From Allacma fusca (taxonomy: Eukaryota > Arthropoda > Collembola > Symphypleona > Sminthuridae): 64,000 nucleotides of DNA. A program made the translations under genes and the position numbers. The notes under the pieces were generated by a model that worked only from the letters and a program-made list of their open reading frames with translations, was not told the DNA's origin and searched no databases. The stretch is from assembly GCA_947179485.1 (NCBI GenBank), contig OX359247.1:33704801-33768800 (forward strand), read 5' to 3'. Of this stretch, positions 21,207 through 42,265 are shown one piece after another; position 1 is the stretch's first letter; each line of letters begins with the position of its first letter.

Positions 21207-23532
21207 TTAATCCAATAAACTTCCTATTTTCTTGGAGGCAAATAACTCAAACATGATATTTCTTTCCATATTTTCATGCAAAGGCTGAACCTGTTGGAAT
21301 ATTTTATCACTATGGTCTGATATTTGGACTACACGACCGCTTTGAAAACATTTTAGTAGAACATATGCAGTTTTTTCCGCACAAAATAGGACTATGCAGG
21401 CCCCTAAACAATAACAAAGAAGTTTTTTTAAAACAGCGGAAAACTGCCGATCCTCTTGGTCTTCTCTGTCGACGTTGACATTTCCAGCATAGTACTTTTT
21501 CGTGTGCTGCCATTTCAAAGCATTTTCCTTTCCCTTCCTCTGGACCTTCTGCTTGAAGTAGCGTGTGTAATATTGTGTCAATCCCACACTCTGGGACAGA
21601 CTCAAATAAAAATTTATTGGTGCTGTTGGGGCAAAAATAAATGAATAATAATAATTATCTCAAACGAATCTTAATATTATTTGTAATTTGAGAAATATCT
21701 ACCTAAAAACATGGGATAGTACTTGCTGACCCCCAGTACCATCAAACCTTGAAAGTGTGAATCCTTGGACAGAGCGTACATTTTCTGACCATTGATATCC
21801 ATCAGAAACTCTCCTCCGATGGCTTCCATAGCCATGGTGTAGCCAATGCAAACGTTATCTCCCTCAAAAATTTTTTGGTAGCACTAGGTTTTAAAAAATG
21901 ACTATGAATAATTATTGTATTACATAATTATACATACGTGATTAAGTACATTCTGCTTAAAAGTAAAAATAAAATTCTCACGTCTTCCGCCAAATAATCA
22001 TACTCCACAGCTCTCCTAGCAATCTCCGCATTCACTGAGGTGTTCAACTCCCTGAAGTCATTTTCGAGAAACCCAGTGTAAAAGACAATACCAATATCGT
22101 ACTTCGATGCCGCCAGTTCCGCAAAATTTTGGGGTCTGGTAATGTAGTGAGGGCAGACGATGGCAGAAATAAGTTTCGATTTGTAAGCACAAGCTAAAAC
22201 AATTAAACTTAGGTACCAGGTCCCCACCATCACATTAACAACCCTATCTTTCGAGAAGCCACTTTTAGATTGGTGCGTGAATGCCATTTGGTCTAGGATA
22301 GGATAGAGTACTATTTGTGCAATGGTCCGGTAAGCAAGTTTCCCAATTCTGAGATAAATGATAGCCTGTAAGACAGCAATCATGGAACTAATTGAGATTA
22401 GAAATCCCATCCAGACCTCATACTCGAGTGGGTCTTTGAGGACACTCAAGGATCCAAATTTCGTCTGGAGAGGCGGTGCTGAGATGAAAATTGCACTGTC
22501 GTGCATATAATCTTTCGTTAGATATATTACTTCCCCTTTTAAATATGTAGGCTTTATCACTGTGGACACTGCTGAGGATCCGTCCACCAGAGGGTTTGTG
22601 AAGTCATCCCATTCTCCGTCTTCATTTTGATCCCCAGTTGGGATTCCCATGGCTGAGGAGGTTTCGAATGAAACATTGAAACGCCCGAGGGCTTCGTAGG
22701 TAACAGCCATGTAAGCATCTTCCCATATCCCCGTCTTGTGGAAGTTTTCTAATCCATCAGTGCACATGGGACAAACAACTACGTTAATAACTTGATTTTC
22801 AAAGTTTTCTTGAGGTGTTGGTAAAAAATCATCATTTTTCTTGAATAAATTATTCTCATGTGAGGCTATTTGTACTAAAGATTTTTCGACGCCAAGGGAA
22901 GCTTTGTAAACTAGAATAGCATCAGTATGGAACACTATGAATAAATTGAAACGAATAACACTAGATATTTTAGAAAATAGGCGAATTTTCTCTGGAATAT
23001 CTGGAATTGTTGTGAAAAATATGCAAAATGCATACAGAGGATTTGGCATTATTTTTAATAGATTTCCTTGCCAGGATGCAAAATTTGCATGAGATTCTAG
23101 CTCCGATTCTTCTAATTGTAAAAAATTGTTGATGTTGTAGAAGCTGACCGAGCAAGTGTAATGAAACTTGTAAATGTGTGGAATTATTTCCAGAGTAAAA
23201 TTGTTTGACATACCATTGTCAAGATCCAAAATCAAATTCGCCCCGTATTTTGAACTAATTGAGTATTGGGAGTCTTGTTTTGTAATTCTGATGTTATTGG
23301 TATGAGCACTCCATTGATATTCCACAAAATGTATTGCCTTGACTTCCAGAATGAATGTAAACGACGAACAGTGGTTAAATTTATCCACCATTTCCTGCTC
23401 AATATGATTATAAACTTCAAACAACTGATGCTGCATTTGTTGGGATGAGACAGGGATACATTTTAATGAAGATGAATTGATTAGTATTATAACAAATAGT
23501 GTCCAAAGGCCCATTGAGAATATTGGTGGCAA
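21207..23532 (-). CDS. Divergent ionotropic receptor IR-A
   Basis: Exons 21982-23532, 21703-21883 and 21207-21622 join to 715 aa. The leader (MGLWTLFVIILINSSSLKC; the Met seven codons in could also start) looks like a signal peptide. A Cys-containing N-terminal region is followed by a ligand-binding S1 lobe holding CPMCTDG (about residue 257) and EDGEWDDFTNPLVDGSSA, which aligns by eye with the NGEWxGMVGELxxGxADIA stretch of ionotropic glutamate receptors. Then come TM1 (EVWMGFLISISSMIAVLQ), a pore segment (IVLYPILDQMAF), TM3 (GTWYLSLIVLACAYKSKLIS), the S2 lobe split over exons 1-2, and TM4 in exon 3 (LLCYCLGACIVLFC). The usual SYTANLAAF gate motif is replaced by SLIVLACAYK. This points to a chemosensory receptor subunit in sensory-neuron membranes; the ligand is unknown. 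It is the most 3' member of the array. Confidence 0.85.
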
Positions 23533-24356
23533 GCGTGCATTCCAAGTATTTTAAGTTAACCGTAACTACTGTGCTCTAAACAGATGCCTTGGAAAGTTTC
23601 GGAACAATCTCACTTGTTTTCATTTGCTTGAACCGTTTGTGAATACAATGAGGATTTCCTGTGCACAAAACGCCCGTAAGTTCAAGGCGTTCCAAGTCAG
23701 CGCACCTAGATTTATCAAAGTCAGAATATTTAAGTATGGAAGTAAATAAGTTATTTTTACAGCGCAATAGAATCCTATGGTAAGCAACAGTTATTACAGT
23801 GAATATACTAATAAGGATTCTCTTCAAAATTACTAGCAAAACGAGTCACTCCGTTTCCGGTATCAGTGCAAGATGGCTACTTAAATGTATGTAAAAGTAT
23901 AGGTATAATGTATCTTCATTATGCAGTCATTTGACTTGTTTAGAAACCGCGTGTTGGTCTTTTTTCTTTAATAATTCTTCTATTAGTTGGTTTATTACTA
24001 AGGTTTCGAACTATCCTTTAGTATGATGTAGTTGCAAATGTTAGTACACGTGTATGTGTAATAGCATTGATTTTCACAAAAATAATAAACACGTATTCAT
24101 AGCAGTGCGTAAACACTCTTAGATTGAATTCTTACGTCAACCACAACAAATGCCCATCCCCCTGAATTTGTTTGTCCTCGCAATAGTTCACAAACACTGG
24201 GATGGTGGCCAGCCAGTAAAGATAAATACATAAATCTAAACCAAAGATGGTAACTACGAAACATCTATTCAACCACTTATTTTTTAAACCTTTTTGTTGT
24301 AATATGTAAACTATTTTATATCATTCCTATTTTCAACAAAAACATTTGATAATGTT

Positions 24357-25456
24357 CAGGCACTCTGGAATAAGGGGGACATGGGAACTTTGTCCCCCCC
24401 CCCCAAATTGGCCTTTTCTTGACTTTTTGCTGTCAAAACTGCCATAAAGCTTCAATTTTTTGAAAACATTATTCTCATCCTTGCACATACAAGCAGGAGT
24501 AGATAGTACGTGGATACTTGTGGAGATCAGATCATCTATGTAACTATCGAAATTATCTTGGTGACAGATCCGGCCTAAATTAATTATTTAGTAAAAATTA
24601 TTCTGTCGGTCCGACAGACAGAAGAGCACAAAATCAGGAAATCGAGGAGAATTATTCTTGTATGGGTCCTCGTGTTCGAAAGCCAAAAGCGAAGTCAAGA
24701 TCAAGTTCGATCAACAATTTCACGAAAAGGGCAAAATTTAAAAAAAAAAGAAGATATGTTTACATCTATAAATCTTTGTTATTGTTGACCTTTTTATATT
24801 TAGAATATTGTTTCCCGCTACTATTACCGAACATTTAGACCTCCCCTTTCCGCTAACAATAATGACCAGATTTTTGAACAATTTGAAACTTTTGTTTTGA
24901 ATTTTGTTCCAGGTTCATACCAGACCAATGACTCTGATCCAAAATGTTGGACCAGACAGTTTGGAATTATGTACCACCATTCCTGTATAAGGAGCATAAC
25001 GGAAAATTTGGTCGGATCAAATTACAAACTCCAGAGGTTTTTGCGCGCTGATTTGATTGAAAAGGATACAACAGAGTATTAAAACGTCAACGAAAGAAGT
25101 TTATTTGAGTTATATTAATAATTACCATTGTATATATGCTGCTTGCTGAAATATTTGCTTCAAATGATTCACCGCCACAAAATTTGGTCCAATTGGTCTG
25201 GTCCAACCGATGGAACAGGTCATGCACTTCTAAACCAGTAAATCTACCGGACAATGTTCCCTGGGTCAAAATTGTAACGGCTCTTGTGGAATGGTCCTAC
25301 TGAAAATCTATAATTTGAATGCTTACATGAGCTAGCTAACCAAAAATAATGTGTAACCCGAAATGTACTTACAGTTTGTATACAGCAACTAGCAAAGTAA
25401 CTAAAATTAGTTTAAAAATGTTGTCCCCCCACTTTTTCGGACGTTCCGAAGTGCCT
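24357..25456. mobile_element. Possible terminal-inverted-repeat element
   Basis: The left end CAGGCACTCTGGAA and the right end TTCCGAAGTGCCT are imperfect inverted repeats. Each is followed inward by a G/C run (GGGGGACA near the left end and its complement TGTCCCCCC near the right). The eight flanking bases (ATAATGTT and ATAATATT) match at seven of eight positions if one terminal base is lost. The interior carries scattered inverted GGTCTGGTCC / GGACCAGAC words and no transposase. Confidence 0.4.
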
Positions 25457-25516
25457 ATAATATTACCGCTTAAGGCACTTGGCACAAAAGCAACCTATGT
25501 ATGTATATAACTCTAT

Positions 25517-25750
25517 CTATAGTATAACTAAGACAATAACAGCAGCTCTTATAGGAACTTTCATGACTTCCGCAAGTATTTGAACAGTCGATATGCTATC
25601 CGAACTTTTGAAGACCTTTGTACTTCGGAGTACAGTAGTTTTCATCTTCCACAAAGCATTGATTTGCTCTCTTTTGATTGCTTTGTTTTGAAAATACGTC
25701 TGGTACTTTAGGGACAGTCCCGTGTTTTCACATGTACAGCAACTCAACCT
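25517..25750 (-). pseudogene. Orphan, decayed third exon of an ionotropic receptor
   Basis: The minus-strand reading TGLSLKYQTYFQNKAIKREQ followed by INALW parallels the start of IR-A exon 3 (VGLTQYYTRYFKQKVQRKGK then ENALKW), so it derives from the segment just before TM4. A stop falls inside what should be TM4. The upstream AG (CTCTACAG) gives the wrong phase compared with every intact array member. No first or second exon is found upstream before IR-B. I infer a remnant of a sixth array gene. Confidence 0.6.
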
Positions 25751-25871
25751 GTAGAGCTTTATGTTTTCTGAAACTTGTAGCAGAATATTTTTATTTTTCT
25801 CCAGTAAATTTAAAATTCAATTCACGGTGATTTGAAAAATATATAATGTTACGAAAACACAACTACGATCT

Positions 25872-26072
25872 GGGCCCTATTTCATAAACATTACAACTCG
25901 ACAATGACAATTTTACAAATACAAGATTAAAAAAGCAATTTATAATTAAGGACCGTGTATATGCTTTCAAATATGACTGAGGTGTTTATGAAACCAAATT
26001 TATAATGACAATTTACAATTTGTGACTTCTTACTTGTAATTGTCGGATTGTAAAGTTTACGAAATAGGGCCC
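25872..26072. mobile_element. 201-bp MITE with long terminal inverted repeats
   Basis: It begins GGGCCCTATTTCATAAACAT and ends with the near-complement TTTACGAAATAGGGCCC. The complementarity continues inward through the TTGTAA / TTACAA and CGACAATGACAA / TTGTCGGATTGT stretches. There is no coding capacity. No clean target-site duplication is visible, so the superfamily is undetermined. Confidence 0.75.
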
Positions 26073-26129
26073 TGCTCTCTAACTTCTTTTACTATATAGC
26101 ATGTTTTTCACTTGTTCCTGTCTCAATTA

Positions 26130-26530
26130 GAACATTTTTTAGTTTATGGAAAGGAGCATTCGTGGATTTTGGAACCCTTCCTTTGGTTTACAGATTCAGA
26201 GAGCCATTTAGATTACAGATTGTTGGGAAAGCTTTTTAGTTTACACATCAGGACAACTTTTTATTAGGTTATGGATTGTGATAGTTTTTAAATTAAGGAC
26301 AGGGAACACTTTTAGGTTACAGGTACAGGATTTTTTTACGGTACTGATAGATTGACCTATTAAGTTTAGGTAGAGGGGAAACTTCATAGGTTATGGAAAT
26401 TGATAGGTTTTTGTGTTCGGAATAGGCGAAACTATTTATGTTTTTCATATTAGACTGGAGATTTATTTTGGTTTTGAAAAAGGTTGTCCTTTAGTTTATT
26501 AAAGGGAATAGCTTCACAGGCTATGGAAGG
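26130..26530. repeat. Degenerate ~30-35-bp tandem repeat
   Basis: A loose unit of the form TTTTAGGTTATGGATT...GGGAAACTTT recurs about ten times with heavy divergence (for example near 26137, 26204, 26237, 26267, 26305 and 26381). It reads as an old minisatellite. Unit length and copy number are by-eye estimates. Confidence 0.45.
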
Positions 26531-28104
26531 GGATATTATTAAAAGAACACATAACAAACGAGAACTAACATAAATCTGTACCATGCACACTTGAAACAAT
26601 GATTTCTTATTACATCCAGAGCAACATAACATGAGAGCAAGGGACATGAGAAACGCGAACCAAACATCGTTACGTCGAGGATCTTTCAGACCCGTCGGAG
26701 AGCCAAAATTTCATATTTGGAGGACATACATTACTTACATCACCATTTTTTCCAATTGTTTACAACAACTCTGTCGTAGAATTAAAGGTCATTACGTTTC
26801 AAACATAGTTGTAAAATCCCTATTATTCTACAGATACATATCTATGTGTATATCTTTCACCTCAGACTCACAAATCGGACATACTACTACTGGTAAAGGT
26901 TGGTGGTTTAGAGGGGAACTTATATCCTCTACTACTGTCGAAGCTGACCTTTAAAAACATTTCTATCAGTTTCTAAGCCCTGGAGATATTTTAAATGTGG
27001 AAGCTGAATCAAGAGCTGAATAGCGTATTTTTCCTAAAATGTTTTCAACCCCGGAGCAAGAATAGTCATGTCTGAACTCATAGTCTATTATACATTTCTC
27101 ATAGTAATATTTTGCTCAAAATCTATTAACCAATTTCAGTACCTATAATCTACAGCAGTTTTGGTTAAAATCTAGGAGATGTAGCGAATTTATCTCTAAT
27201 TAAGAAAAAGCAAAGAGGGAATTGTTTGTGACTTTCCGAATCTATATATTTGTGCAGGTTTATCAAAAATAATCGCCGCTCCATTATTTTATTACCCCAA
27301 ATACACTCTTGAATAAAATCTAGAAGAATGAAAACATTCTGGCAGCGTTTGTCCTAATTATCGGTTGTGAAATGATCAAGTTTAAAATAAGCTTGTAGAT
27401 CAAGACCGCCAAGACGCAGCCCAATTGGTTGTGTATTAGCCTTAATTTATTTATGCTTATTTGAAATAATATTTTCCCCAATTTACGGAAACTAGAGTAG
27501 ACTTCAGGTTTTATTTTCAATATATTTTACAAAGAACACATTTACACAGTTTACGCATGCTGTCTTATCGGTTTCATGACTGTATTTGGCTCAGCTGAGT
27601 AACGCCCCTATAGTGTCAACGTATTCCATCTATGCCTCAGATATCTCTGTGTATTGTATGTATTTACGCTTACGTATGTATCTACACGAAAAAACATTTA
27701 AATTAATCACCATTATGACAGGGATTCATACATGATATCACGCGGTAAATTCATGCCCACTAATAAATAACCATGCAATGTTTGCACAAATATCTGTTTG
27801 CATGATTTGATGAATGCTCCAGATATAAGAAAATAGATATTTTATTCAAGTTTGATTCAAGTCAACGTAGAGGAAGTTCACACACACACACACATACGAT
27901 ACCTTATGTTAGCAAGTAGAGTACATTGTGCGCTGATGCATCAAACAATCTGTGTGTAGCATTGACTCTGATAAATATGATGGTTGCTCCAAACCTTGAG
28001 GGACACAAAATGCCCACGGGCCTGATCAAAGACCTGCCAATTCTAAAAATGTCATGGGAGCTAGATACATAATTTGAACTAGCAGATGGGTCAGATGAAA
28101 ACTT

Positions 28105-30417
28105 TCACTTTGCGAATTGAACTTTTGATTGTGTAAACAATTCTTCTGGACAGTTCTGGAGGCGATAATAAAGAAATTTCAATTTTCTAGCGATTCCGCC
28201 TGGGATAAAATTTTCTCCTTTTCGAAAACGATGAAAACAGGACCTCAAATGTGTACGACGGTCTGCTGGTGTATCAAATGCAATCACATGTACAATATCA
28301 GTATGTGCTTTCCAAGCATAAAACAGCCTTGCTATGGTCTCCAGAAGAAATACACTTCCAGCCAAGGTGCTACCAAAAAATATAATCCTCATTATAAGCA
28401 TTTCAAATTGCTTATTTAAGATAACTTCATGAGAATCTTCATTTCCTTTGTAATACGGCATGTTTTCGACAAATTTACGAGCATTAGCACGGCCTTTCTG
28501 TTTCATATCCCGTTTCGCAAGCGCATGGTACAGATGAGAGAGTCCAACACTGTTCGACAAACTAGTCAAGTAATTTAAAGGCTCTGGAAATTATATGGTT
28601 ATCCATTTACAATTAATTTTTGTTACTACACATGTAGTAATGTACAAATAATAGTTATACATTGCCCAAATCCTTACCCAGAAACATTGGGAAATATTTG
28701 CTAACCCCAAAACCAACAAACGCGTGGAAGTGGGCATCACGTGACTGGAGATACAAACTCTTTCCATAAATGTCAATCAGAAACTGGGTAGCAAATTCCT
28801 CAATAACGCTCACATAAGCCAAGCAGGCTCTGCCCTCCTGAAGTATCATTTGGTAACACTGGAACCAGAACAATAAATAAACCTTTAATAAACCAATTAA
28901 AATTAGCCCAGTTCCAAACATTCCCAACCAAATTTCCAAACCTCAGGTGAAATGTAATCGTATTCCACAACACGCCGTAAAATTTCCTGGCTCATCTTGT
29001 TGTTCGTGATTTTGAGGTCATTTTCCATAATACCTGTGTACAGGACTGCCCCCAATTGGTAGCTGGATTCTGAAAGCTCTTGGAACGTGGAAGGGATTTT
29101 TGAATACCGCGGGATAACAATGGCAGAAATTAAATTACATTTGTAAGCACAACTTAAAACTATTAAACTGAGGATCCAGAGCCCACAAAGAAATCGTGTC
29201 CGATTACTTTTCCATGCATTTCTTAGGCACCCGGTTTCAGCAACTTGATCCACAATGGGGTAAATAATAGCTCTAACAACGGATAAGCTCATTTTCCCAC
29301 CCTGACCATGAATAACCAGTTGCAAACAAAATACCATGACGCTGGCTGATATACAAAATGCAATCCATACCTGATTATCCAACGGATCTTTTAAAATAAC
29401 GAGTGAGTCAAATTTTATCTTTTTTGGCAAACCTATCACGAAAATTGCACTGTCATGAGCATATGGAGTAGAAAAGAGTATATGTTCAAGCTTGGATGAA
29501 GATGGTAATACGAGGGTTGCAATGGCTGAAGATCCTTCTATTAGAGGGCGCGTATACTCATCCCATTCTCCATCTTCATTCTGACCGCGTTGGGGTAAAC
29601 TAAAAACTGAAACGGGATCAAGCGTCGCATTCAATTTGCACAAAGCTTCGAAGAGCAGAGCTAAATTATCAACCACCCAGATTTTCCGGGTCTTCACCTC
29701 CTCAAATTCATTCTCACAGATGGGGCAAACGGAAACACTTACAGGACGACCTTGAAAATCTTCCCGTTTGTTAGAAAACACTTCGGGGCTCAATTCAACC
29801 TCTCCACCCTTTGAGAAGCCAAGAGTAAGAAGCTCTTCGGCAATGCCCGGGACTTGTTTTAAAATTACGATTTCCTTATCTTTTGGAATTAGAAAAATTT
29901 TATTGGTTGTTATTGTGGAAACTTTCAGAAATGACTCTATCAAGGTTATCTCGGTTATGGCGAAGTAAATATAAAATGGGATTCCTAAATGAGGCATTAA
30001 CTTAAACACTGCGGCTTGAAACCTTTGGAAATTATCATCTCTGCCCTCAGACAGGGATTGCCATTCATCACTGACTTCGACTAAAACCATAGAACAATGA
30101 TATCGAAATCTGATTGGATGGCTAATAGAATTCATAGCTAGGATATTGTACTGGTCCGTATCAAGCAGAAGATTTGTTGTATAGTGGAGATTCCTTTTTA
30201 AGGCTCCAATTTTTAGCATTTGATTTCTTGAATTTAAAAGCCAGTCGTTTATCAAGGATGTAGTGGAATTAGAGATAAAGACTGTTTGTGGAGAACAATT
30301 GAAATTATCAGATATTTGTGTATGTAGTTTTCGAAGAAGCTCTATATAGTTGGTCGATATGAACTTGGAGGAAGACAAAACTGAGACAACCATGAAGCAA
30401 AGTAGTCTGAGAATCAT
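28105..30417 (-). CDS. Divergent ionotropic receptor IR-B
   Basis: Exons 28942-30417, 28678-28858 and 28105-28583 give 711 aa. I start at the ATG at 30417 because it opens a signal-peptide-like leader (MILRLLCFMVVSVLSSSKF); an in-frame ATG at 30528 would add 37 residues in front of it. S1 carries CPICENE and EDGEWDEYTRPLIEGSSA. TM1 is QVWIAFCISASVMVFCLQLV, the pore segment YPIVDQVAETG, TM3 LWILSLIVLSCAYKCNLISA, and TM4 (exon 3) MRIIFFGSTLAGSVFLLE. Exon 2 opens CYQMILQEGRA as in its paralogues. The cytoplasmic tail after TM4 is the longest of the five (about 70 residues, Arg/Phe-rich). It is more similar to IR-C and IR-D than to IR-A or IR-E. Predicted chemosensory receptor; ligand unknown. 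Confidence 0.85.
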
Positions 30418-31061
30418 GTCTTTGGAAAAACAAAGGATTTTAGCAATCAAAAACGTATTATCCTGATTCAGAAGTACATGAATTTTTACGATACGAAACG
30501 ACACCAGAATAAGCCCAGCTTCCTTCAATACTTTTTCACGTTATGCTAAACTACTGACTCATGCTGTAAAGTGTTTGCTCATGTTTAATATTAAATCTTA
30601 TTTTTGCTCATTGACTGTAATACAGGATACGCCCAAATGTATATCAACCCATGAACCCGTCTGTTGTGTATAATAAATGTCTGGTAACATATTTATTGGT
30701 GCATGAAACTGTATGTACACTTGAAATGGCTGACAAAAACTTTTAAAAGTCACGGTACAAATTCATGATCGCTTTCTTTTCAACGTCCAAAAATGTTGCA
30801 GAACCAGGCTGCATTCCCAAGCTCGCCCTGAATCTCTTAAAATATTTGTCAACGAACAACGCAGGCTACAGAGCAATACGGGGAGTAGTGGGATGGAGTA
30901 TATCGTTGGCTGAATTCTAAAAAGTACCATTTTCATTTCATGACCTATGCTTTTTAAATGGGTTCGCAAATGAAAATGGTACTTTTTAGAATTTAGCCAA
31001 CGATATATTCTATTGCATAAAATTAAATGTGTTGGGGAGGTAAAAGTACATTACCATTACT
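30418..31061. other. Spacer between IR-B and IR-C
   Basis: Presumed promoter of IR-B and 3' flank of IR-C. The only structured feature is the fold-back element at 30900-31006. No further gene is seen. Confidence 0.5.
30900..31006. mobile_element. Fold-back MITE, copy 1
   Basis: Two ~39-bp arms (starting ATATCGTTGGCTGAATTCTA and ending with its near-perfect complement TTAGCCAACGATAT) flank a ~28-bp loop containing CCTATGCTTTTTAAATGGG. The same loop and inner arms recur at 45308-45405, which marks this as a dispersed repeat. Confidence 0.8.
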
Positions 31062-33805
31062 CTAGCTTGCGAAATATTCAGCTGGGAATGAATGCACCTG
31101 TATTCCTGAAGCTGTCTTTCGTGTAAGCTGCCACAAAGAAGACGATTTTCGCTCCACATAAAACTTTTCAACAGAATCTTGCCAACTCTTACACTTGTGG
31201 ACCAAATTCATTAAAACTTCTAGGGCAAATGCAATTCCAGCTAATAGACTGCCTGAAAGAATCAACTGCTTAAGAAATGTTTTATATTGCTCATTTAAAA
31301 CAGACTCTTTTTGATATCTGACGCCCTTATAAAAAGGTTTTTCAGATGCCCAATTTTTAGCATTGTTTCGCCCAATCATTTGAGTCCGAGATCTCGCAAC
31401 CTTACCGTACAGAATGGAGAGCCCTGAGCTTTCGGATAAGAGGATGAAATTATTTACTGATTCTGAAATAATTTCAATAATAATTAATTTAATAAACCAT
31501 TGTGTAATAATTATTATGAAATAATGGTTCAGCTTCAAATTTTATTAACTTGGTATCGGCTAATTACCTAAAAGACCAGGATAAAACTTGCTGACCCCTA
31601 AACCCAAATACCCATGGAAATGGGAATCAAGTGACTTGTAGTACATATTTTGTCCATAAATGTTAACTAGGAATTGTTCGCTGTATGATTCCAGCAAAGT
31701 TGAGTAAACAAAGCACGCTTTTTCTCCCTCGAATATCATTTGGTAGCACTACATGAAATGGATGAAACCTTAATGACAGTAATACATGTAAAACATGCAA
31801 GTTACATATATGTATGTATAAACAGGTGGTCCTATATCCTTTTTCTCCCTCCTGAACTATAAGTATAAGCGACAACAAGGCCAAATAAGTGATTTCCCCT
31901 TTTTTTAAGCTCTGGGGAGTAGATGTCCCGAAGATGAATTTGCGGCCAACCTTGTTCCCTGTTCTAACGGGTCATGGGCACAGTACAGACCTGCTGGTTA
32001 GCTCTCCAGAAAGTTTTTAGATTTTCTACAAATGAGCGTAAAATAAATTTCAGAAAACTTTCCCTGTGATCAAACATTTGTAATACCGACAGTCCCCAGA
32101 AAATTTCGACTTTGGTTCACTTTCCTGAGGATTGTGACCTCTACTTTTGACCTATTTCAACAATGAAACAACTTTCGAAAAATCTGGACAAAAATTTACT
32201 TCAGATTGGGGAATCACATGTTTTGTTATGTTGTCCCTTATAAAAGAGACCAAGGATATGGGACACCATGTACATACATGGAACAGAGAAGCAAACCTCT
32301 GGAGATATGTAATCAAATTCTTGCATCCTGCTTAAAAGTTCCTTCCCCATGGAAGTATTACTGCTTTCGAAGTCCATTTCCATAATTCCAGTGAAAAAAA
32401 CTGCTCCAAGTTCGTAATGAGATTTTGACAATTCCAGGAATGTTCTGGGAGGCATTGTATATTGGGGTATAACAATTGCAGAAATCAAATTACATTTATA
32501 AGCGCAACTGAGTACTATCAAGCTGAGGAGCCACAATCCTACAAGGAGCCTCACTCGTACACTACTCCATGCAGATTTCACATCACCGGAAATAACAGCC
32601 ATTTGGTCCAATATGGGTAACATTATAGCTGGTATAACTTGCCATTGGGTGGTTCTGCGTTGGGAATGAGTGCTCATAATCAGTTGGAATTGCAAGCACA
32701 CGATCATTGAAGCTATTGAAATTAAAAACGCTACCCAGACATTAGTTTCAAGGGGATCTTTCAGGACAATCAAAGATCCAGCTTTCACCTTTCTGGGAAG
32801 GCTCACCAGGAAAATGGCGGCGTCGTAAACGTAAGGTCTTGTGAGATAAACAACTAGGGATTTGGATGTGGAAGGAAATGTCATGGTTGATATAGCTGCT
32901 GATCCATCAATTAGCGGACGAGTGTACTCATCCCATTCTCCATCGTCGTTCCTTTCACGTGAAGGCAAGCTAAAAACTGCAACCAGTTCCAGTGTGGAGT
33001 TTACCCTGTTTATGACTTCATCAATAATTGCCAAATCAGGGCCTATCCAAATTTTAAGCCTTTTAGACTCTTCGTACGACTCTTCGCATAAGGGACATGC
33101 AAGAACGGCTACCGGTCGACCTTGAAAATCCTGCCAACCTTCCCAATGATTACAAAATTTTTCCATGCTAATATCAAAACTTTCCTCTTCAAAGGATTGC
33201 AACAAATAAACTTGATCAATCATTCCTGGGGTCTGTTTCAGCACATTGACTTTTCCTTCGTTCGGAATCACAAAAATTTTCCTGTGAGTTAATGCTGTTA
33301 CTTTCAGGAACGACGGAATTAGAGCTACTTCAGATGATGAAAAGTAAATGAAAAAAGGTTTTTCGACATTCCGCGTTAGTTGTAGCAAGTTTTCCTGGAA
33401 ATATTCCTGATTAAAATTATCCCCCTCAGATGTGGTATTTTTTGTCAACAAAGTTCCGATTTCGATGAAAACCAAAGAACAATGATACCGGAATCTGACC
33501 GGGTCCTCAATGGAATCCATTAGCGCGGCATTGTTTGCTTCCATATCTGTTACAATGACTGTAACGTAGTCATTAGACCTCTTTATGGAGGTAGCCAAGA
33601 TCCGATTTTGTAGAAGAGGAAACCAGTCGGTATTGGTGTGCATACCGTTGGTTGAAAAATGAAAGACTACTTGGGGTGTACAATCGTCAAAATTTTCGGT
33701 TATTTCAGCATGCAATCTTTCAAAAAGTTGGATATAAACACTTGGGATGGATTTTGAAGTTGATATGGAAGTTAAGAAAGCCAAGGAGATTATTACAGAA
33801 AACAT
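31062..33805 (-). CDS. Divergent ionotropic receptor IR-C
   Basis: Exons 32297-33805, 31568-31748 and 31062-31462 give 696 aa. The leader MFSVIISLAFLTSISTSKS is followed by IPSVYIQLFERLHAEITENF. S1 has CPLCEESYEE and DDGEWDEYTRPLIDGSAA. TM1 is NVWVAFLISIASMIVCLQFQ, the pore segment MLPILDQMAVISG, TM3 GLWLLSLIVLSCAYKCNLIS; TM4 in exon 3 is LILSGSLLAGIAFALEVL. The protein ends with a ~50-residue tail. Near-identical to IR-D in its leader, TM1-TM3 and S2, so a recent tandem duplicate. Intron 1 is longer than in the paralogues (about 550 bp). Predicted chemosensory receptor subunit; ligand unknown. Confidence 0.88.
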
Positions 33806-33966
33806 GACTGCAGCCAGTCAGAGTTAGTTGGTTATAAAACTGACCCTGTGTAAGACCCGTTAACTTCTTGATCTGGGCAATGGGTTCCTCACATAATTAC
33901 GTATATACGTGTGGAAATTCTTATCTGGGCTACTGTTTCTAGATTAAATAAACGTACTTGCTCAGA

Positions 33967-33983
33967 GTTCCGGGAACTCCCTT
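33967..33983. promoter_or_regulatory. Conserved 17-bp word upstream of IR-C
   Basis: GTTCCGGGAACTCCCTT lies about 165 bp upstream of the IR-C start and recurs exactly at 39594-39610 upstream of IR-D. It contains TTCN3GAA, the general shape of a STAT-type site. It may simply be residual duplication identity. Confidence 0.35.
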
Positions 33984-34290
33984 ACAGCTGGGTGGTGTGG
34001 TTCGTGTAGACATAAATATTGTCACAGATTTAGTACGGCGTAATTTATATTATCTCATGCAACACCCGTACCATTTCCGGGACTCGCCCTGTACTCTACA
34101 GTCGTGAATAACAAGTACCATTACTTACGTCAATCAACAATAAATTGTTAGGGGAATTGTTTTTGAACACTATATATGTATGGGATCTAACTATAAAAAT
34201 TCCTAACTTATAACCATTTGTTTTGGATACCCTATTTTTCTACAATCTGATAGTATTATCTGAGTGGGAGTTTGTAAGACTCAACCACTA

Positions 34291-34440
34291 GATTTTGTGG
34301 GTCTTGATCTCGTCAAATTCGTTCTAATACAGGTAACATGCACTAACAGGCACTTACGGGACCACGTTGAGCATCTTCTCGTTTGTTAGAAAATATGTAC
34401 GTTCGGAACTCAATTCAAACGTTACCCCCGAGGTTGTGCG
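34291..34440 (-). pseudogene. Decayed fragment of an ionotropic receptor first exon
   Basis: The plus-strand text GATTTTGTGGGTCTTGATCT followed by CGTCAAATTCGTTCT tracks IR-B around 29681-29725, and ATCTTCTCGTTTGTTAGAAA tracks IR-B around 29757-29777. The minus translation ends ...GVTFELSSERTYFLTNEKM, matching IR-B GGEVELSPEVFSNKRED. The CPxC region is disrupted. Nothing of exons 2 or 3 is found nearby. It is a remnant of a receptor lost between IR-C and IR-D. Confidence 0.65.
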
Positions 34441-34533
34441 ACATATGATTATTTTTATTGACATCGTTTCCTCCTGCAGCATTTTTATTTCCGGTATTGC
34501 GGGAGAAATGTCAGATGTGCAGGAGGAAAGAAA

Positions 34534-34632
34534 ACATACATATATGGTCGCTGAAGATGCAAAATGGTCTACGTGCGAATGTTTTTGTATAGCATTTAAA
34601 CCATTTTGCCTCTTCAGCGATTGTACATATGC
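34534..34632. repeat. Small fold-back (35-bp arms)
   Basis: The arm containing GGTCGCTGAAGATGCAAAAT pairs with CCATTTTGCCTCTTCAGCGA across a ~29-bp loop. No target-site duplication is clear. It could be a MITE or a decayed fold-back. Confidence 0.6.
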
Positions 34633-35394
34633 CCGTATATGCACTGTTTAAAATACAGTAGTCATGCGCATTATTACAGTTGTCCGAATGTGGGCATACA
34701 ATTTTTATGAAAGCTGCCACAGCTGAATCTCATTTTAAAAAATGTTCGAGTACTATTGATATGTAGAGTACAAAAGGGTACGTTCATGTTAATATTATTT
34801 CTTTTATCATAAATAAGTACAAATATAGATAGTCCCAGGGTACTAACTGTATCATTGGTAAGAGACTTATCGTTAGTGTTATTTTTTATTGTAACCAATT
34901 ATTATTAACTGTGAAGCAAGATTGAAATTACAAAATTACTTCCAGGAGGACCGCCATAACTATACAGTATTTGTATCTTACCTTACTTGATACCAACATA
35001 CATAGGGGTTTCGGCTACAAAAGTAAATTTATTTATAATTTATGTAATGTGGTTTTCCGTCTGAGTAGTATAATCAGTAGATATATTACAACGTCAGCTA
35101 AACAGAACTAACGAGTTTAACTCCTCGTAACTTAGAAGGGAATCTCTCGGGGTGGATACCGTGGATGGAAATGAAACTTTGTGTGAGGACAGGGCCTTGG
35201 TCCAAAACTTAAACCCACAAAATAGTTCAGGCCCAAGGTTGCGTGAGAGTTTAAATTTCATTTTTTATCGGAGAGGACGGACTGGGAACCACGTCTCAGT
35301 TTAAAATTTGCATTTTAAATTCCATAACAAATTTCAATTTTCGAATTTCGAGACATATGTATGTGCATACGTAAACTTGGCATAGGCTAAAATC

Positions 35395-36170
35395 AGCCAC
35401 AAAGACCCCCGGTTTGAACCAAATTTATTTCCAGAAATTCTGAAAAATACTTCATTGACATTGGTCAATACTTAGTCACAAGGTCAAGAAGCGACAAGGA
35501 AAGTTGTTTTTACCAGAATTTTAATTTCGTCAATTTAAGATTTTATTTATTTAATTTTATTTATGAAAACATTTGTCGAGCTATAACTCAGGTCTCTACG
35601 TTGAGATTTGTGGACATGACCTAAATGTGTGAGGATGAAGTAATGGAAAATACTAAAAATATTTTATAGCAACTCTTTAAAGCGAATCTTAAACTTTGCT
35701 ACACAAATTTAAGTTTTCAGACCGAAAAAAACAGGAAGATGTTGTCAAACTCTAATGAATTCCAATTAAATTTGCTACAAACCCAGTTGTTCAACAATAT
35801 TTATAAACGTCTACCCATCCATGAAAAATGGCAAGAACATAAACTCCTCTCCGTAATTTCTTTACTTTGCTCTTTATCTTTAGCTTCAAGTTGAATTGCT
35901 TCAATCTTGCTTCGGCTCTTTTTCTTTCATGTCCACAACTATCAACGTAGAGACCTGCTCGCTGGAATTCCCTAATTCAAACTGGTGTCAACACAATTTC
36001 GGATTTTTTTACGGGAATCAAAAAATGAAAGAATTATTGACATTCTGGAAAAAAAAACTTTACTTCAAGTTTCTTCATACTGTGACTTCAAACATTGACC
36101 CGGCTCAAGGAGGTAAATTTTAAATTTCTGGAACCAAAATTGCTTTATCTGGGGAAACCATTACATCATA
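35395..36170. mobile_element. Long inverted-repeat (fold-back) element
   Basis: The left half (TTCCAGAAATTCTG... through CTCTACGTTGAGATTTGTGG) is roughly reverse-complementary to the right half (CACAACTATCAACGTAGAGA ... AAATTTCTGGAA). The best block is 35594-35618 against 35931-35957. Divergence and small indels show it is old. No transposase is present. Ends are estimated to within about 20 bp. Confidence 0.6.
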
Positions 36171-37151
36171 AGTCGCTTCTTCTTGTGAACTAGGGGGGAC
36201 AAGAAATGATTGTGGCCACCCTATACATACAAAATGATAAAAACAGAATTTTAATTGATCTGTAGTGATTTCTTACTTATTTAAATTTTGTCTTACTTAT
36301 TTGGTACTACTGAGGGGGATTTTCGACTTACTAAGACTTAAACTCAAATGAATCTCTATAAAATTTAAAACAAGTGAATCCTTCCGAAATATTTTTATGA
36401 GAGACAGAACGTCCATGAAGAAAGCAACGTCAGAAAATGTTTTTTTCGTACCTTTGTCACTTTCATTTCTAAAAAGATAATTTCTCCAACCTAGCTATGA
36501 AGCAAGTTATCCCAGTTAGCACCATGTTTATTGAATCATATACGAAGAAACCACTTCAGACCACTAATTATCAAATAGATATCCAGAAATGTGGTTAGAG
36601 CAATATTATACCAACAGTGTAAAAGTTTATATGTATATGTTTGTACGTAAATGAATTTGACCACAAACGTTGTAATGCACTTGGATGTGTCAAAATTTTA
36701 ATGATCACTCGTGAATGCTCACTGGTAGGCATTTATAAACATTTTTGGGTGTATGTATATGTAAACGTATAGTTGCTATCTTATGTGATATGACTTAATA
36801 ATAACTTACTTAATAATGCCACATGCCACGACACACCACCATAATTTGATTCCTGAGGTTGTAGCTAATTTTTTCCAAATTGTCAAGCATTTTGTTCATT
36901 GGCGTAAATTAATTTTTGGAGACACGAATGGAATCCAAAGTCACGTTTTGAAGGATATTAAAAGTAATTTTATTTTTATTTTCACACAACATTTGTTCCA
37001 GGTTATATTTCAACACTCGTCTTTAAGATAACAATTCTGAGATAAATACTAACAGACAAATAAGCAGACATTTACAAACGGACCTCCAGTGTAAATTTAA
37101 CTGAACAAGGGTAGTTTATTTTGAATGAAGAAAAACTAAGGTCATTACATT

Positions 37152-39392
37152 TTAATTTGCAAAGTATTCCGCTGGAAACGATCCCACCGAAAATCCTGTA
37201 GTTATCTTGCGCGACAGTTGCCACAAAGTAAATTTTTGCATTACATAAACCCTTTCGGCAGAATCGTACCAACGTTTCGATTTTGTGATCTTTAATAAGA
37301 CTTCAAGAACAAACGCACTTACAGCTAATAGACTGCCTGCGAGGACAAGCTGCTTAAGAAATGTTTTAAATTGTCCATTTAAGGTAGAGTCCTTTTGATA
37401 TCCGACGCCCCTATAAAACGGTTTTTCAGAAACCCAATTTTTGGCATTTCTTCGACCAATTATTTTAGTATGAGTTTTCGCAATCCTGTAGTACAGCTGG
37501 GTGAGACCCGAGCTTTCAGACCAACTGATGAAATTATTTATTGGCTCTGAAAATGTGACAATAAAATTTGCTTAACAGTTTCAACTGATATTTGAATACG
37601 TCGGAAGATTTGATTACCTAAAATTCCAGGAAAAAATTTGCTGACTCCTAAACCCATATGCCCAGCAAAATGTGAGTCCAGGGACTTGTAGTACATTCCG
37701 TGTCCATAAATGTCGACCAGAAACTGTTCGCTGAATGAGTCTACTAAAGTCGAGTAAGCAAAGCAAGCCTTGTCTCCCTCAAATATCGTTTGATAGCACT
37801 GGATGAAATGCATGAAATTTAAATGACTGTAATCAATTTAAAATATTCAGTCAAGGCACATACACATACATGGATTAAAGAAGCATAATTACCTCTGGTG
37901 ACAGGTAATTATATTCTTGCATTCTACGTATAAATTCCTTCCCCATGGAAGTATTACTGGCTTCCAAGTCCATTTCTAGTAGGCCAGTGAAAAATACTGC
38001 TCCAAGTTCGTAATGAGATTGTGACAGTTCCAGGAATGTCCTGGGAGGCATTACATATTGGGGTATAACAATGGCAGATATCAAATGGCATTTATAAGCG
38101 CAACTGAGTACTATCAAGCTGAGGAGCCACATTCCTACAAGTAGTCTCACTCGTACACTACTCCATGCAGATTTCACATCACCGGAAATAACAGCCATTT
38201 GGTCCAGTATGGGTAATATTATAGCTGGTATAACTTGCCATTGGGCGGTTCTGTGTTGGGAATGAGTGCTCATAATCAGTTGGAATTGCAAGCACGCGAT
38301 CATTAAAGCTATTGAAATAAAAAATGCTACCCAGACATTAGTTTCAAGGGGATCTTTCAGGACAATCAAAGATCCAGCTTTCACCTTTCTGGGAAGGCTC
38401 ACCAGGAAAATGGCGCCATCGTAAACATAAGGTCTTGTGATATAAACAACTAGTGACTTAGACGCGGAAGCAAGTGCCATAGTTGCAATAGCTGCTGACC
38501 CATCAATTAACAGACGAGTATACTCATCCCATTCTCCATCGTCGTTCCTTTCACGCAACGGCAAGCTAAAAACTATTTGAAGCTCCACTGTGGAGTTTAC
38601 CCTGTTCATGACTTCATCAATAATGGCCAAATCAGCCATCGTCCAAATTTTCAGCCTTTTAGCCTCCTGATATGACGATTCACATATTGGGCACGCAGCA
38701 ATGACCAATGACCGACCTTGGAAATCTTCCCATTGATTACAAAATATTTCCTTGCTAATATCAAAACTTTCCTGTTCAAAGGATTGCAACAAATAAACTT
38801 GGTCAATGATTCCTGGGGTCTGTTTTAGCACATTGATTTTCCCTTCGTTCGGAATCACAAAAATTTTCCTGTGAGTTACTGCAGTTACTTTCAAGAATGA
38901 CGGAATTAGATCTACTTCAGATGATGAAAAGTAAATGTAAAAAGATTTTTCGACATTCCGCGTTAGTTGTAGCATGTTTTCCTGGAAATATTCCTGATTG
39001 AAATCATCCCCCTCAGATCTGATATTTTTTGTCAACAAAGTACCGATTTCGATGAGAACCAAAGAACAATGATAGCGAAATCTGACCGGGTCCTTAATGG
39101 AATGCATTAGGGTGGCATTGTTTGCTTCCATATCCGTTACAATGGCTGTAACGTAGCCATTAGACCTCTTCATGGAGGTAGTCAAGAGCCGTTTTTGTAA
39201 AAGAGGAAACCAGTCTGTATTGGTGTACATACCGTTGGTAGAAAAATGAAAGATTAATTTTGGTGTGCAATCGTCAAAATTTTCGGTTATTTCAGCGTGC
39301 AATCTTTGAAAAAGTTGGATATAAACACTTGGGATGGATTTTGAAGTTGATATGGAAGCTAAGAAAGTTAATAAGATTAGTCCAGAAAACAT
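37152..39392 (-). CDS. Divergent ionotropic receptor IR-D
   Basis: Exons 37893-39392, 37618-37798 and 37152-37546 give 691 aa. The third exon has no ATG near its start and is read through the splice phase (opens EPINNFISWSESSGLTQLYY, ends SFPAEYFAN). The leader MFSGLILLTFLASISTSKS and the following 25 residues nearly duplicate IR-C. S1 has CPICESSYQE and DDGEWDEYTRLLIDGSAA. TM1-TM3 differ from IR-C at only a few positions; TM4 is LVLAGSLLAVSAFVLEVL. As in IR-C the tail ends FPAEYFA(N/S). The S1 segment RLKIWTMADLAIIDEVMN differs from IR-C (RLKIWIGPDLAIIDEVIN), so ligand preference may have shifted. Predicted chemosensory receptor; ligand unknown. Confidence 0.88.
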
Positions 39393-40012
39393 GACTTCGG
39401 TAGCCAGTCGATCTGTTCAGTTTAAAGAATTTCTAAAACTAACCGTAAGACAGATACTGTAATCGTTTGAGCTGAGCCATGGATTTTTGCATAATTCTAT
39501 TTTTAGAATTCCTTCTATTGTCTTGATTTGTATAACCATGTACATATACTGTTGTTGTTCCTGCGTTAAAGAAGTGTACTTGATCAGGAACAGGTTCCGG
39601 GAACTCCCTTGTTTCCGGGGAGCAGTTTGTACATTCACATTTCCGTGTTTCATCCTCGTGGCGAGCACACGATTGACCTTAAATTGCATGAATCAATGGA
39701 CATGAACTTGAATGGAATATTTTGCATTCAATCGACGTATAAAAATAAATTCATTTTTTAAAAACGATCCCCACTATATGTTTACTATAATTCAAATTAC
39801 TAATTTATAACAAATTATTTCTGCTGGGAGCTTATTTTCAGCTTTTTATCTTGATTGTCCTATTTCGTATTAACACCCATTATATTAATTATTAAATTAT
39901 ATTTTTGCATCTGAAAATTATTGGTTACTCCACCACAATTCTCAAACAGTAGATGTTAGGATTCCGACCTTTTATTGCTACCAGCATGGTCATCAATACG
40001 CACTCACAGAAT
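39393..40012. other. Spacer between IR-D and IR-E
   Basis: Presumed IR-D promoter. It shares the 17-bp word GTTCCGGGAACTCCCTT (39594-39610) with the IR-C upstream region. No other feature is seen. Confidence 0.5.
39594..39610. promoter_or_regulatory. Conserved 17-bp word upstream of IR-D
   Basis: Exact copy of the word at 33967-33983, about 200 bp upstream of the IR-D start. The surrounding sequence is clearly less conserved than the word itself, which suggests function, but chance persistence after the duplication is possible. Confidence 0.35.
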
Positions 40013-42265
40013 TTATTCCATGTAGTGTCTGAGCATAGTTAGCAGGTACCACTGGCTCAATAAAAACTGTACCAATATTTCAATTACAAGAACCACAGTC
40101 GCAATTGCGAAGCCATTTTTGCTGATTTGAATGAGGACGTTAGCAAGGTGTCGACTTTGAATATTTTCAGATTTAGCATGAGGTCCTTTGTAGTAAGGAT
40201 GGGTTCTCAGCTTCTTCTTAGCATTAACTTTCCCACTTTTTCGTCGCTTGTCTAAGAAATAGTTCCAGTAGTACCTTGACAGTCCGGAGCACTCCATCAG
40301 ACTGGTGTAGTAATTTACCGGTTCTAAGCAAGACACTCGTAAAAATATGAGCGTACCCGTGAGGTCATAATCTTATAAAAGCTATATGGTAAATTGTACA
40401 TACCTTGAAACATTGGATAAAAATGGCTGACAGCATTTCCACCCGAACCTTGAAACCTGGTGTCCCTTGACAGAGCAAACATGGCCCGTCCTTGAGTATC
40501 CATTAGATATTCCAAACCAAATCCCTCCAAAATCATGTCATAGCCCAAACAGACATTGTCTCCTTCGAAAATCTTCTGGTAGCACTACAACATATATATG
40601 AATGTTTGTAACATTATATTATGGTGGCATTAAAAAAGCTTCAGAGAAGTAGTCTATTAAATGATCATTAAAAGTAAATAGCATAATACTTCCAAAACTA
40701 TACATGGATGTTTATAGTACATAGTACAGACAGACTAAATTAAGAATATATCTTCTCACGTCAGCAGACATGTAGTCATACTCAACCGCCCGATGAAGTA
40801 TCTCCGAATTCAATGAAGAATTCCTAGACTTAAAATCCTTTTCCAAGAACCCGGAGAAGAAAACAGCTCCAATGCCGTAGTCAGACTTGACCAGCTCTGA
40901 AAATGTTTGTGGTCGGGGAATGAAGCGTGGGTAGACGATTGCAGAAATAAGCTCGGATTTGTAGCAACAGCTTAGAACGATCAGACTTAACAGCCAAGAT
41001 CCAACTAAGAATCTAGCACCCCAACGTGTTATGACATTTTTGGAGGAACTGTACGTGAACGCCGCTTGGTCAAAGATTGGGTGAAATACAGCAGCCACAA
41101 TGACGTAATAAGCAAGAGATCGTTGCCAGAAATAAACAAGAATTTGAAAGCATACCACAATGCAAGCAATGCATACCAGAAATGTGAACCAAACCTCTGT
41201 GCTCCATGGCTCCACCAAAACTGATACGGACTTGAAGGTCCCTTGCACCGGCAGTGCCGTAATAAACACAGCACCATCATAAAAATGTGGCTTACATAAA
41301 TAAACTTTATCAGCTTTGAATTCATGGAGCTTCACAATGGTTGAGATTGCTGCTGATCCATCAATTAGTGGTTGAGTGAAATCATCAAATTGTCCCCCAT
41401 CAGAGACTTGATCTGATGGTACACCGAATGAGGCCTCAATTTCCAACGTGACATTAAATTTTCTTGTAGCTTCGAATATAATGGCAATGAAATGAAAGGT
41501 CCACATTTTCTCTTTCTGTGCATCTTGTATTTCGGATCCGCAAACTGGACATCCTATGACTGCTATTGGATGACCTTCAAAATTCTCCAAATTATTTAAA
41601 AAAATGGATCTATGGATATTGAAACCATAAATTTCGTCGTAAAAGCCAATTTTTAACAAATTTCTGTTAAACTCTGTTGCAGGTGTAGGACTAAATACAG
41701 AAATTCTGTCTCCTTCAAAAACTATGAAAACTGTGAAGCGAAACTTGCTTAGCATTTTTGTCATAAATTTCAAGTCATCATACCGTTTGGGATTGTCCAC
41801 AGTAAATACAAAAAACGAAGAGTGAGGATGAGGAACTATTTTTAAAAGGCGTTCGGTCCATGATTGAACTTTTTCGAAATTTAATTCGGTATCATTTAAC
41901 TGTAAGTATTTGCTAATGTCATAGTACAGTATTGAGCAAGAGTTGTGATATTTCAAAGCATAGGGAATGGTTGAAAATTGTCTCGGAGAATTTTCGTCAA
42001 GATTTAGTAGGAAGTTAACTTTATTATTGATGGGAGAACTAGTGGATGTATCCAAAAAATTATTATTTGATTGACCCGCAAGCCAATCATAGCGCATGAA
42101 GTTTTTAGAATTCGAAGCAAGAACTAATGAAAGTTGGAAGCAATCCTGGAATTGATTTTTGATGTCCGCTTCAATACGCTTGTAAATATCTATTACTTGA
42201 ATTTTTTGAATTGTTTCTTGTGGGATGAATAGCGTAGAATACAATAAGACTAATAAGACTTGCAT
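40013..42265 (-). CDS. Divergent ionotropic receptor IR-E
   Basis: Exons 40760-42265, 40404-40584 and 40013-40323 give 665 aa. The leader MQVLLVLLYSTLFIPQET is a likely signal peptide. S1 has CPVCGSE and the motif DGGQFDDFTQPLIDGSAA (Glu-Trp of the other members replaced by Gln-Phe). TM1 is EVWFTFLVCIACIVVCFQIL, the pore segment FHPIFDQAAFTYS, TM3 GSWLLSLIVLSCCYKSELIS, TM4 ISKNGFAIATVVLVIEIL. The tail after TM4 is very short (about 15 residues). Exon 2 opens CYQKIFEGDNVC, almost as in IR-A; together with the N-terminal LQLxxxEL segment this groups IR-E with IR-A, at opposite ends of the array. Predicted chemosensory receptor; ligand unknown. Confidence 0.86.

Follow-up and report, generated by a model that had tools for sequence, protein, structure and literature searches.

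Large expansions of ionotropic receptors (IRs) have been described in a dipluran and in a cockroach. The dipluran Campodea augens has 2424 IRs, mostly intronless, and the part of its genome report that treats them describes several intron-bearing lineages, the introns of which were gained independently and never lost (PMC6938034). Blattella germanica has 755 genes in a divergent, largely intronless IR clade that is presumed to be gustatory, and the section on this clade notes idiosyncratic single, rarely double, introns in some of the genes (PMC6175461). Among the springtails, at least 15 IRs, with orthologues of IR25a and IR8a, are given in the relevant passage of the Holacanthella duospinosa study (PMC5644144). 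Three collembolan genomes yielded no odorant receptors (PMC6080948), which makes IRs and gustatory receptors the main candidates for springtail olfaction and gustation.

The IRs of Allacma fusca are comparable to those of Campodea augens in forming a large, fast-evolving expansion in a non-insect hexapod, with arrays and many scattered singletons (PMC6938034). The Campodea intron pair described there has phase 0 followed by phase 2, whereas the Allacma pair has phase 0 followed by phase 1, the two being likened by description (PMC6938034). Cockroach introns, in the section on the divergent clade, commonly lie near the 5′ end, whereas the Allacma pair flanks the central part of S2, close to the 3′ end (PMC6175461). 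Compared with the at least 15 IRs given in the Holacanthella passage, Allacma harbors at least 74 three-exon loci, some of them truncated, in addition to 155 long-open-frame matches. We consider it highly probable that, as a whole, the genes described below are divergent IRs, namely, channel subunits of a large dispersed family whose introns were gained once.

The window, i.e., the whole stretch of DNA analysed (64,000 nucleotides), corresponds to C10:33,704,801-33,768,800, where C10 (66,084,411 bases) is chromosome 3 of this globular springtail. The array spans exactly 21207-42265 of the window, from the stop codon of the first gene to the start codon of the last, and its genes were named IRa to IRe in ascending order of coordinate. 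The features, from the upper to the lower end, are as follows:

40760..42265, minus strand, IRe exon 1: hydrophobic start, N-terminal ectodomain, S1, M1, pore, M3 and start of S2; gene of 665 aa
40404..40584, minus strand, IRe exon 2: 181 nt, opens CYQ, middle of S2; a crude free-phase scan preferred 172 nt
40013..40323, minus strand, IRe exon 3: end of S2, M4 and a short tail
37893..39392, minus strand, IRd exon 1: gene of 691 aa
37618..37798, minus strand, IRd exon 2: 181 nt
37152..37546, minus strand, IRd exon 3: with M4
32297..33805, minus strand, IRc exon 1: gene of 696 aa (79.5% identity with IRd)
31568..31748, minus strand, IRc exon 2: 181 nt
31062..31462, minus strand, IRc exon 3: with M4
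28942..30417, minus strand, IRb exon 1: gene of 711 aa
28678..28858, minus strand, IRb exon 2: 181 nt
28105..28583, minus strand, IRb exon 3: with M4
26621..26707, minus strand, short remnant of another family member: 28-29 residues from the start of the M1 region, 45-54% identical (tblastn, E 3e-4 to 4e-3)
21982..23514, minus strand, IRa exon 1: gene of 709 aa
21703..21883, minus strand, IRa exon 2: 181 nt
21207..21622, minus strand, IRa exon 3: with M4; stop codon at the low end

All five predicted models were open from ATG to stop in three exons, and the placement of the five genes on the minus strand by the initial annotation was confirmed. Its outline of the exons also held: the first exon, put at ∼1.5 kb, measured 1476-1533 nt, the middle exon was 181 nt in each gene, opening CYQ with phase 0 in and phase 1 out between GT/AG borders (5/5), and the third exon (311-479 nt), which had been said to carry TM4, encoded a hydrophobic segment fitting M4 in every case. 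Intron 1 ranged from 83 to 548 nt and intron 2 from 71 to 105 nt. The spliced proteins were 665, 691, 696, 709, and 711 aa long; of the proposed range of 665-715 aa, the lower end was correct and the upper end slightly off. Ten frames around the array were checked against Pfam; five matched AAA ATPase, Vitellogenin_N, P450, EamA transporter, and THAP, the remaining five matched no family, and none of the ten was related to the array.

On the basis of their sequences, the five genes are divergent IRs. PF00060 was the best Pfam family for all five proteins, yet the bit scores (15.1, 20.9, 20.7, 16.0, and 24.6) were below the cut-off of 30.8 in each case, and none of the five had PF10613 among its matches listed at E up to 1. 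The domain search with these two families, suggested earlier as a check of identity, thus fails at the curated threshold. The PF10613 matches listed in the genome were long-frame, presumably intronless IRs and multi-exon iGluR/IR genes. A family profile was built from 30 first exons, comprising those of IRa-IRe and 25 drawn from a list of 35 long paralog exons. Searched against the PDB, it returned 164 matches at E up to 1, and the best 60 of these 164 were all glutamate receptors, with GluD1 at the top (E 2.3e-9) and with coverage of S1, M1, the pore, and M3. This match to iGluRs at 2e-9 supports the reading of the initial annotation that the array encodes divergent ionotropic receptors with a fixed three-exon plan. 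PF00060 was matched at E up to 0.01 by 15 of the 30 profile members. The Pfam results of the 30 members also included one chance-like match to TrbL. Hydropathy analysis showed M1, M3, and M4 segments in all five window proteins, with M4 located after S2, and a signal-peptide-like start exceeded the same threshold in two of the five. Structure prediction of exon 1 with AlphaFold, using the five-sequence alignment, gave a mean pLDDT of 37, too low to be informative. The order S1-M1-pore-M3-S2-M4 is common to the Allacma proteins and to iGluRs such as GluD1 and the kainate receptors.

To place the array in its genomic context, the 392,743,791-base assembly (91 contigs) was searched with IRc and four paralogs from other subfamilies as queries. 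The three-exon family was spread over three chromosomes, with at least 74 distinct loci (42 on C8 and 16 each on C10 and C1) and a further 14 fragments. This count is a lower bound because each search scores only 64-71 candidates; the last two queries combined contributed three new loci. Some of the 74 loci contained stops or short frames (down to about 250 aa), and hence not all are intact. Elsewhere in the genome, 155 long-open-frame Lig_chan/Glu_bd matches were found, some of them under the Pfam cut-off, and these are presumably intronless IRs. The five window genes are ordinary members of the three-exon family and account for a small part of it.

The exon plan was shared throughout this family. 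Prior to any splicing model, the reading-frame matches to the five-gene profile were already interrupted at two common positions in almost every locus. With phases 0 and 1 imposed, 45 of the 48 distinct fetched loci could be modelled (the model list has 47 entries, as IRc and IRd recur in two partial ones); the second exon measured 181 nt in 41 of these genes and 184 nt in the other 4. The three loci without a model lacked a second donor (L016), lacked a full exon 2 (L043), or had a split first exon (L062). When a crude splice scorer was run without fixed phases, intron 1 was in phase 0 in 46/46 and intron 2 in phase 1 in 42/44 loci, and exon 2 measured 181 nt in 36, 184 nt in 4, and other lengths in 4 (n = 44). 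Each of the four discordant picks, L012 (= IRe), L021, L047, and L060, also has a 181-nt solution with imposed phases. Chance is excluded as the source of the shared exon plan, since there is homology between the exons, and another 40 distinct genes could be modelled alike with phases imposed.

Glutamate receptors hold glutamate by an arginine and an acid in S2. Among the 43 aligned rows of the family, the glutamate-anchor arginine was kept in none, and an Asp or Glu at the S2 position was likewise found in 0/43. The anchor-arginine position was occupied by K in 8 rows, including all five window genes, and by H, T, A, S, N, F, or V in the others; four of the five intronless IRs analysed retained the arginine. 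The family is therefore set apart from iGluRs, which hold both anchors, and, judged by its residues, is not one of iGluRs proper (AMPA/kainate/NMDA), as the glutamate-binding residues are not intact. Judged by eye, the ectodomain preceding S1 also differs from that of iGluRs, being only about 210-230 residues long. Other positions were strictly maintained: an acid followed by Q in the pore, YK in M3, and a pair of S2 cysteines were each present in 43/43 rows. A CxxC motif in S1 was present in 39/43 rows, in the form CPxC in 18/43, including all five window genes; two of the four rows without CxxC were truncated there. It is very likely that the family no longer binds glutamate. As both anchors have been lost in every aligned member, the ligands are probably other small molecules, and probably differ between paralogs.

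Each protein would be a subunit of a membrane channel and would consist of a short ectodomain at the N-terminus, a ligand-binding domain of two lobes (S1 and S2), and a pore domain comprising M1, the re-entrant pore, M3, and M4. In sensory neurons, each subunit would assemble with an IR25a/IR8a-type co-receptor, and the cation pore would open when the lobes close on an environmental chemical. The chemosensory role that the initial annotation called probable is a reasonable expectation given the IR family to which the genes belong. It is unlikely that the genes, being true IR homologs, have non-chemosensory functions in tissues of the gut, gonad, or nervous system, for instance as internal sensors or as synaptic channels; such functions would be compatible with the great divergence of the family from solved glutamate receptors, but many fast-diverging, arrayed paralogs accompanied by fragments (at least 74 loci and 14 fragments) form the pattern of chemoreceptors, as outlined in the parts of the dipluran and cockroach reports concerned (PMC6938034, PMC6175461).

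The conserved cysteines invite a further reading, which we regard as rather improbable, that the three-exon family is a springtail-specific class with a binding chemistry of its own, in which a cysteine-based site (disulfide or metal) would serve in ligand capture or gating, and in which the intron-framed S2 cassette would diversify between paralogs. It draws on the CxxC in S1, the invariant S2 cysteines, the acid beside the pore glutamine, and the loss of both anchors.

With regard to the origin of the two introns, a quick maximum-likelihood tree without bootstrap was computed from the five window genes, 38 other three-exon genes, five intronless IRs, and one partial iGluR. All sequences were from the Allacma fusca genome alone, some intronless rows being cut at the 5′ end by the locus; of the modelled genes, L021 (short) and L022 (without exon 3) were left out. 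A branch with SH-aLRT 100 separated all three-exon genes from the five intronless IRs and the iGluR. The nearest intronless IRs, L063 and L064, read through both intron sites in one frame. They share the acid-Q pore and the two S2 cysteines with the family, and have Y-R in M3 where the three-exon family has Y-K. A single gain of both introns fits this read-through and the shared pore and S2 features. Most likely, the two introns framing the middle of S2 would have been gained once in an intronless ancestor and kept through duplications, with the root and the direction of intron change set by the partial iGluR outgroup and by five intronless genes, the majority of them long-branched.

Single gain was weighed against inheritance of the exon plan from ancient IR/iGluR introns. 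S2 introns are indeed present in iGluR genes and in a locus that we take to be IR25a-like from its motif, a fragment of which was identified by PDB search as a glutamate-receptor relative. However, compared by eye, these introns seem to lie at other places, with an offset of ∼14 residues past site 1 and of 3-6 residues at site 2, and the IR25a-like intron near site 2 is apparently in phase 2, as against phase 1 in the family. The nearest relatives, L063 and L064, are intronless at both sites. Ancient inheritance is thus quite unlikely, and a single gain within the divergent IR lineage is preferred.

Pairwise identity within the array was 79.5% for IRc-IRd, 43.5-44.5% for IRb against IRc and IRd, 38.1% for IRa-IRe, and 30-33% for the others, and in the tree IRa paired with IRe (SH-aLRT 99). 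That the five are a recent, self-contained tandem expansion from one founder at the site is very improbable: they are adjacent, on the same strand, and of one exon plan, and IRc and IRd are closely similar, but IRb, IRc, and IRd clustered with two C1 genes at 40.38-40.39 Mb (SH-aLRT 97), the next relatives of the five and these two together were three C10 genes at 35.0 Mb (a 10-gene clade with IRa-IRe and the two C1 genes, SH-aLRT 99), pairs other than IRc-IRd are 30-45% identical, and a constrained clade of the five window genes was rejected by the AU test (p-AU 0.013). The "clean lineage-specific IR expansion" of the initial annotation accordingly does not stand as worded, given that the five are not a clade and that the family extends over at least 74 loci on three chromosomes. 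From their divergence and placement, the five are read as old paralogs, not one clade against the rest of the genome. The window array would be an old tandem cluster, with copies having moved from or into it, to or from other sites.

The closest pair, IRc-IRd, showed a dN/dS of 0.34. Synonymous divergence between the two was 0.15 in the N-terminus, 0.11 in M1-M3, 0.46 in S1, 0.94 in exon 2, and 0.66 in exon 3, and this unevenness suggests patchy gene conversion in exon 1.

The 155 long-frame IR matches included one on the two X chromosomes, as against 41.6 expected, and 8 of 22 conserved multi-exon iGluR/IR loci were on the X chromosomes. A depletion specific to IRs was ruled out by the controls, as P450 (1/92) and GR (5/53) were likewise scarce on the X chromosomes and the autosome C12 was also depleted (IR 4/155, P450 3/92, GR 0/53). 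The scarcity on the X chromosomes is a general bias of expanded families and not an IR trait.

In the open-licence PubMed Central literature, no paper linking Allacma with ionotropic receptors and no description of a three-exon springtail IR family was found, and the family size and intron plan in a springtail appear to be undescribed in that literature. Large IR expansions with lineage-specific introns are already known from the dipluran and the cockroach, and the present family is a collembolan example. Collembola would thereby join the groups with massive IR expansions, and the invariant intron pair would provide a clean marker for dating the rise of the family.

Genome-wide profile matches to three expanded families, namely, the ionotropic receptors (IRs), P450s, and gustatory receptors, revealed that most of their members are carried by contigs C1, C8, and C10 of the Allacma fusca assembly as compared with C12, C5, and C9. 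In counts restricted to the top-scored matches, many of which sit in arrays, the two X chromosomes X1 and X2 (putative assignment) held only one of the 155 IR matches in long open frames against 41.6 expected from length, and C12 held four (23.6 expected from length); the putative X chromosomes and C12 carried one and three of the 92 P450 matches, respectively, and five and none of the 53 gustatory receptor matches.

The genome profile search also showed four equal-scoring IR matches at C1:36,972,806-36,985,105, spaced at an interval of exactly 3,960 bases, and this region is probably a near-perfect tandem array of one IR unit. On C10 (chromosome 3), the Lig_chan match at C10:2,770,369-2,771,199 lies within an open frame of 2130 aa, the usual length being 600-750 aa, and the frame perhaps represents fused receptors. 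The genome note (PMC10427803) describes a heterozygous inversion on chromosome 3 at about 5-45 Mb, within which the whole window (1-64000) falls.

Synonymous divergence between the neighboring receptor genes IRc and IRd (window 31062-39392) was uneven along the pair, ranging from 0.11 in M1-M3 to 0.94 in exon 2, and hence suggests patchy gene conversion between them.

Two differing exons for the ligand-binding lobe S2 were observed at a locus that we take to be IR25a-like:

C8:24,268,267-24,271,452, minus strand, L003, IR25a-like gene with two differing S2 exons

The unlike exons lie ∼750 nt apart with plausible splice sites at each. They are candidate mutually exclusive exons of a co-receptor, or else a partial duplication.
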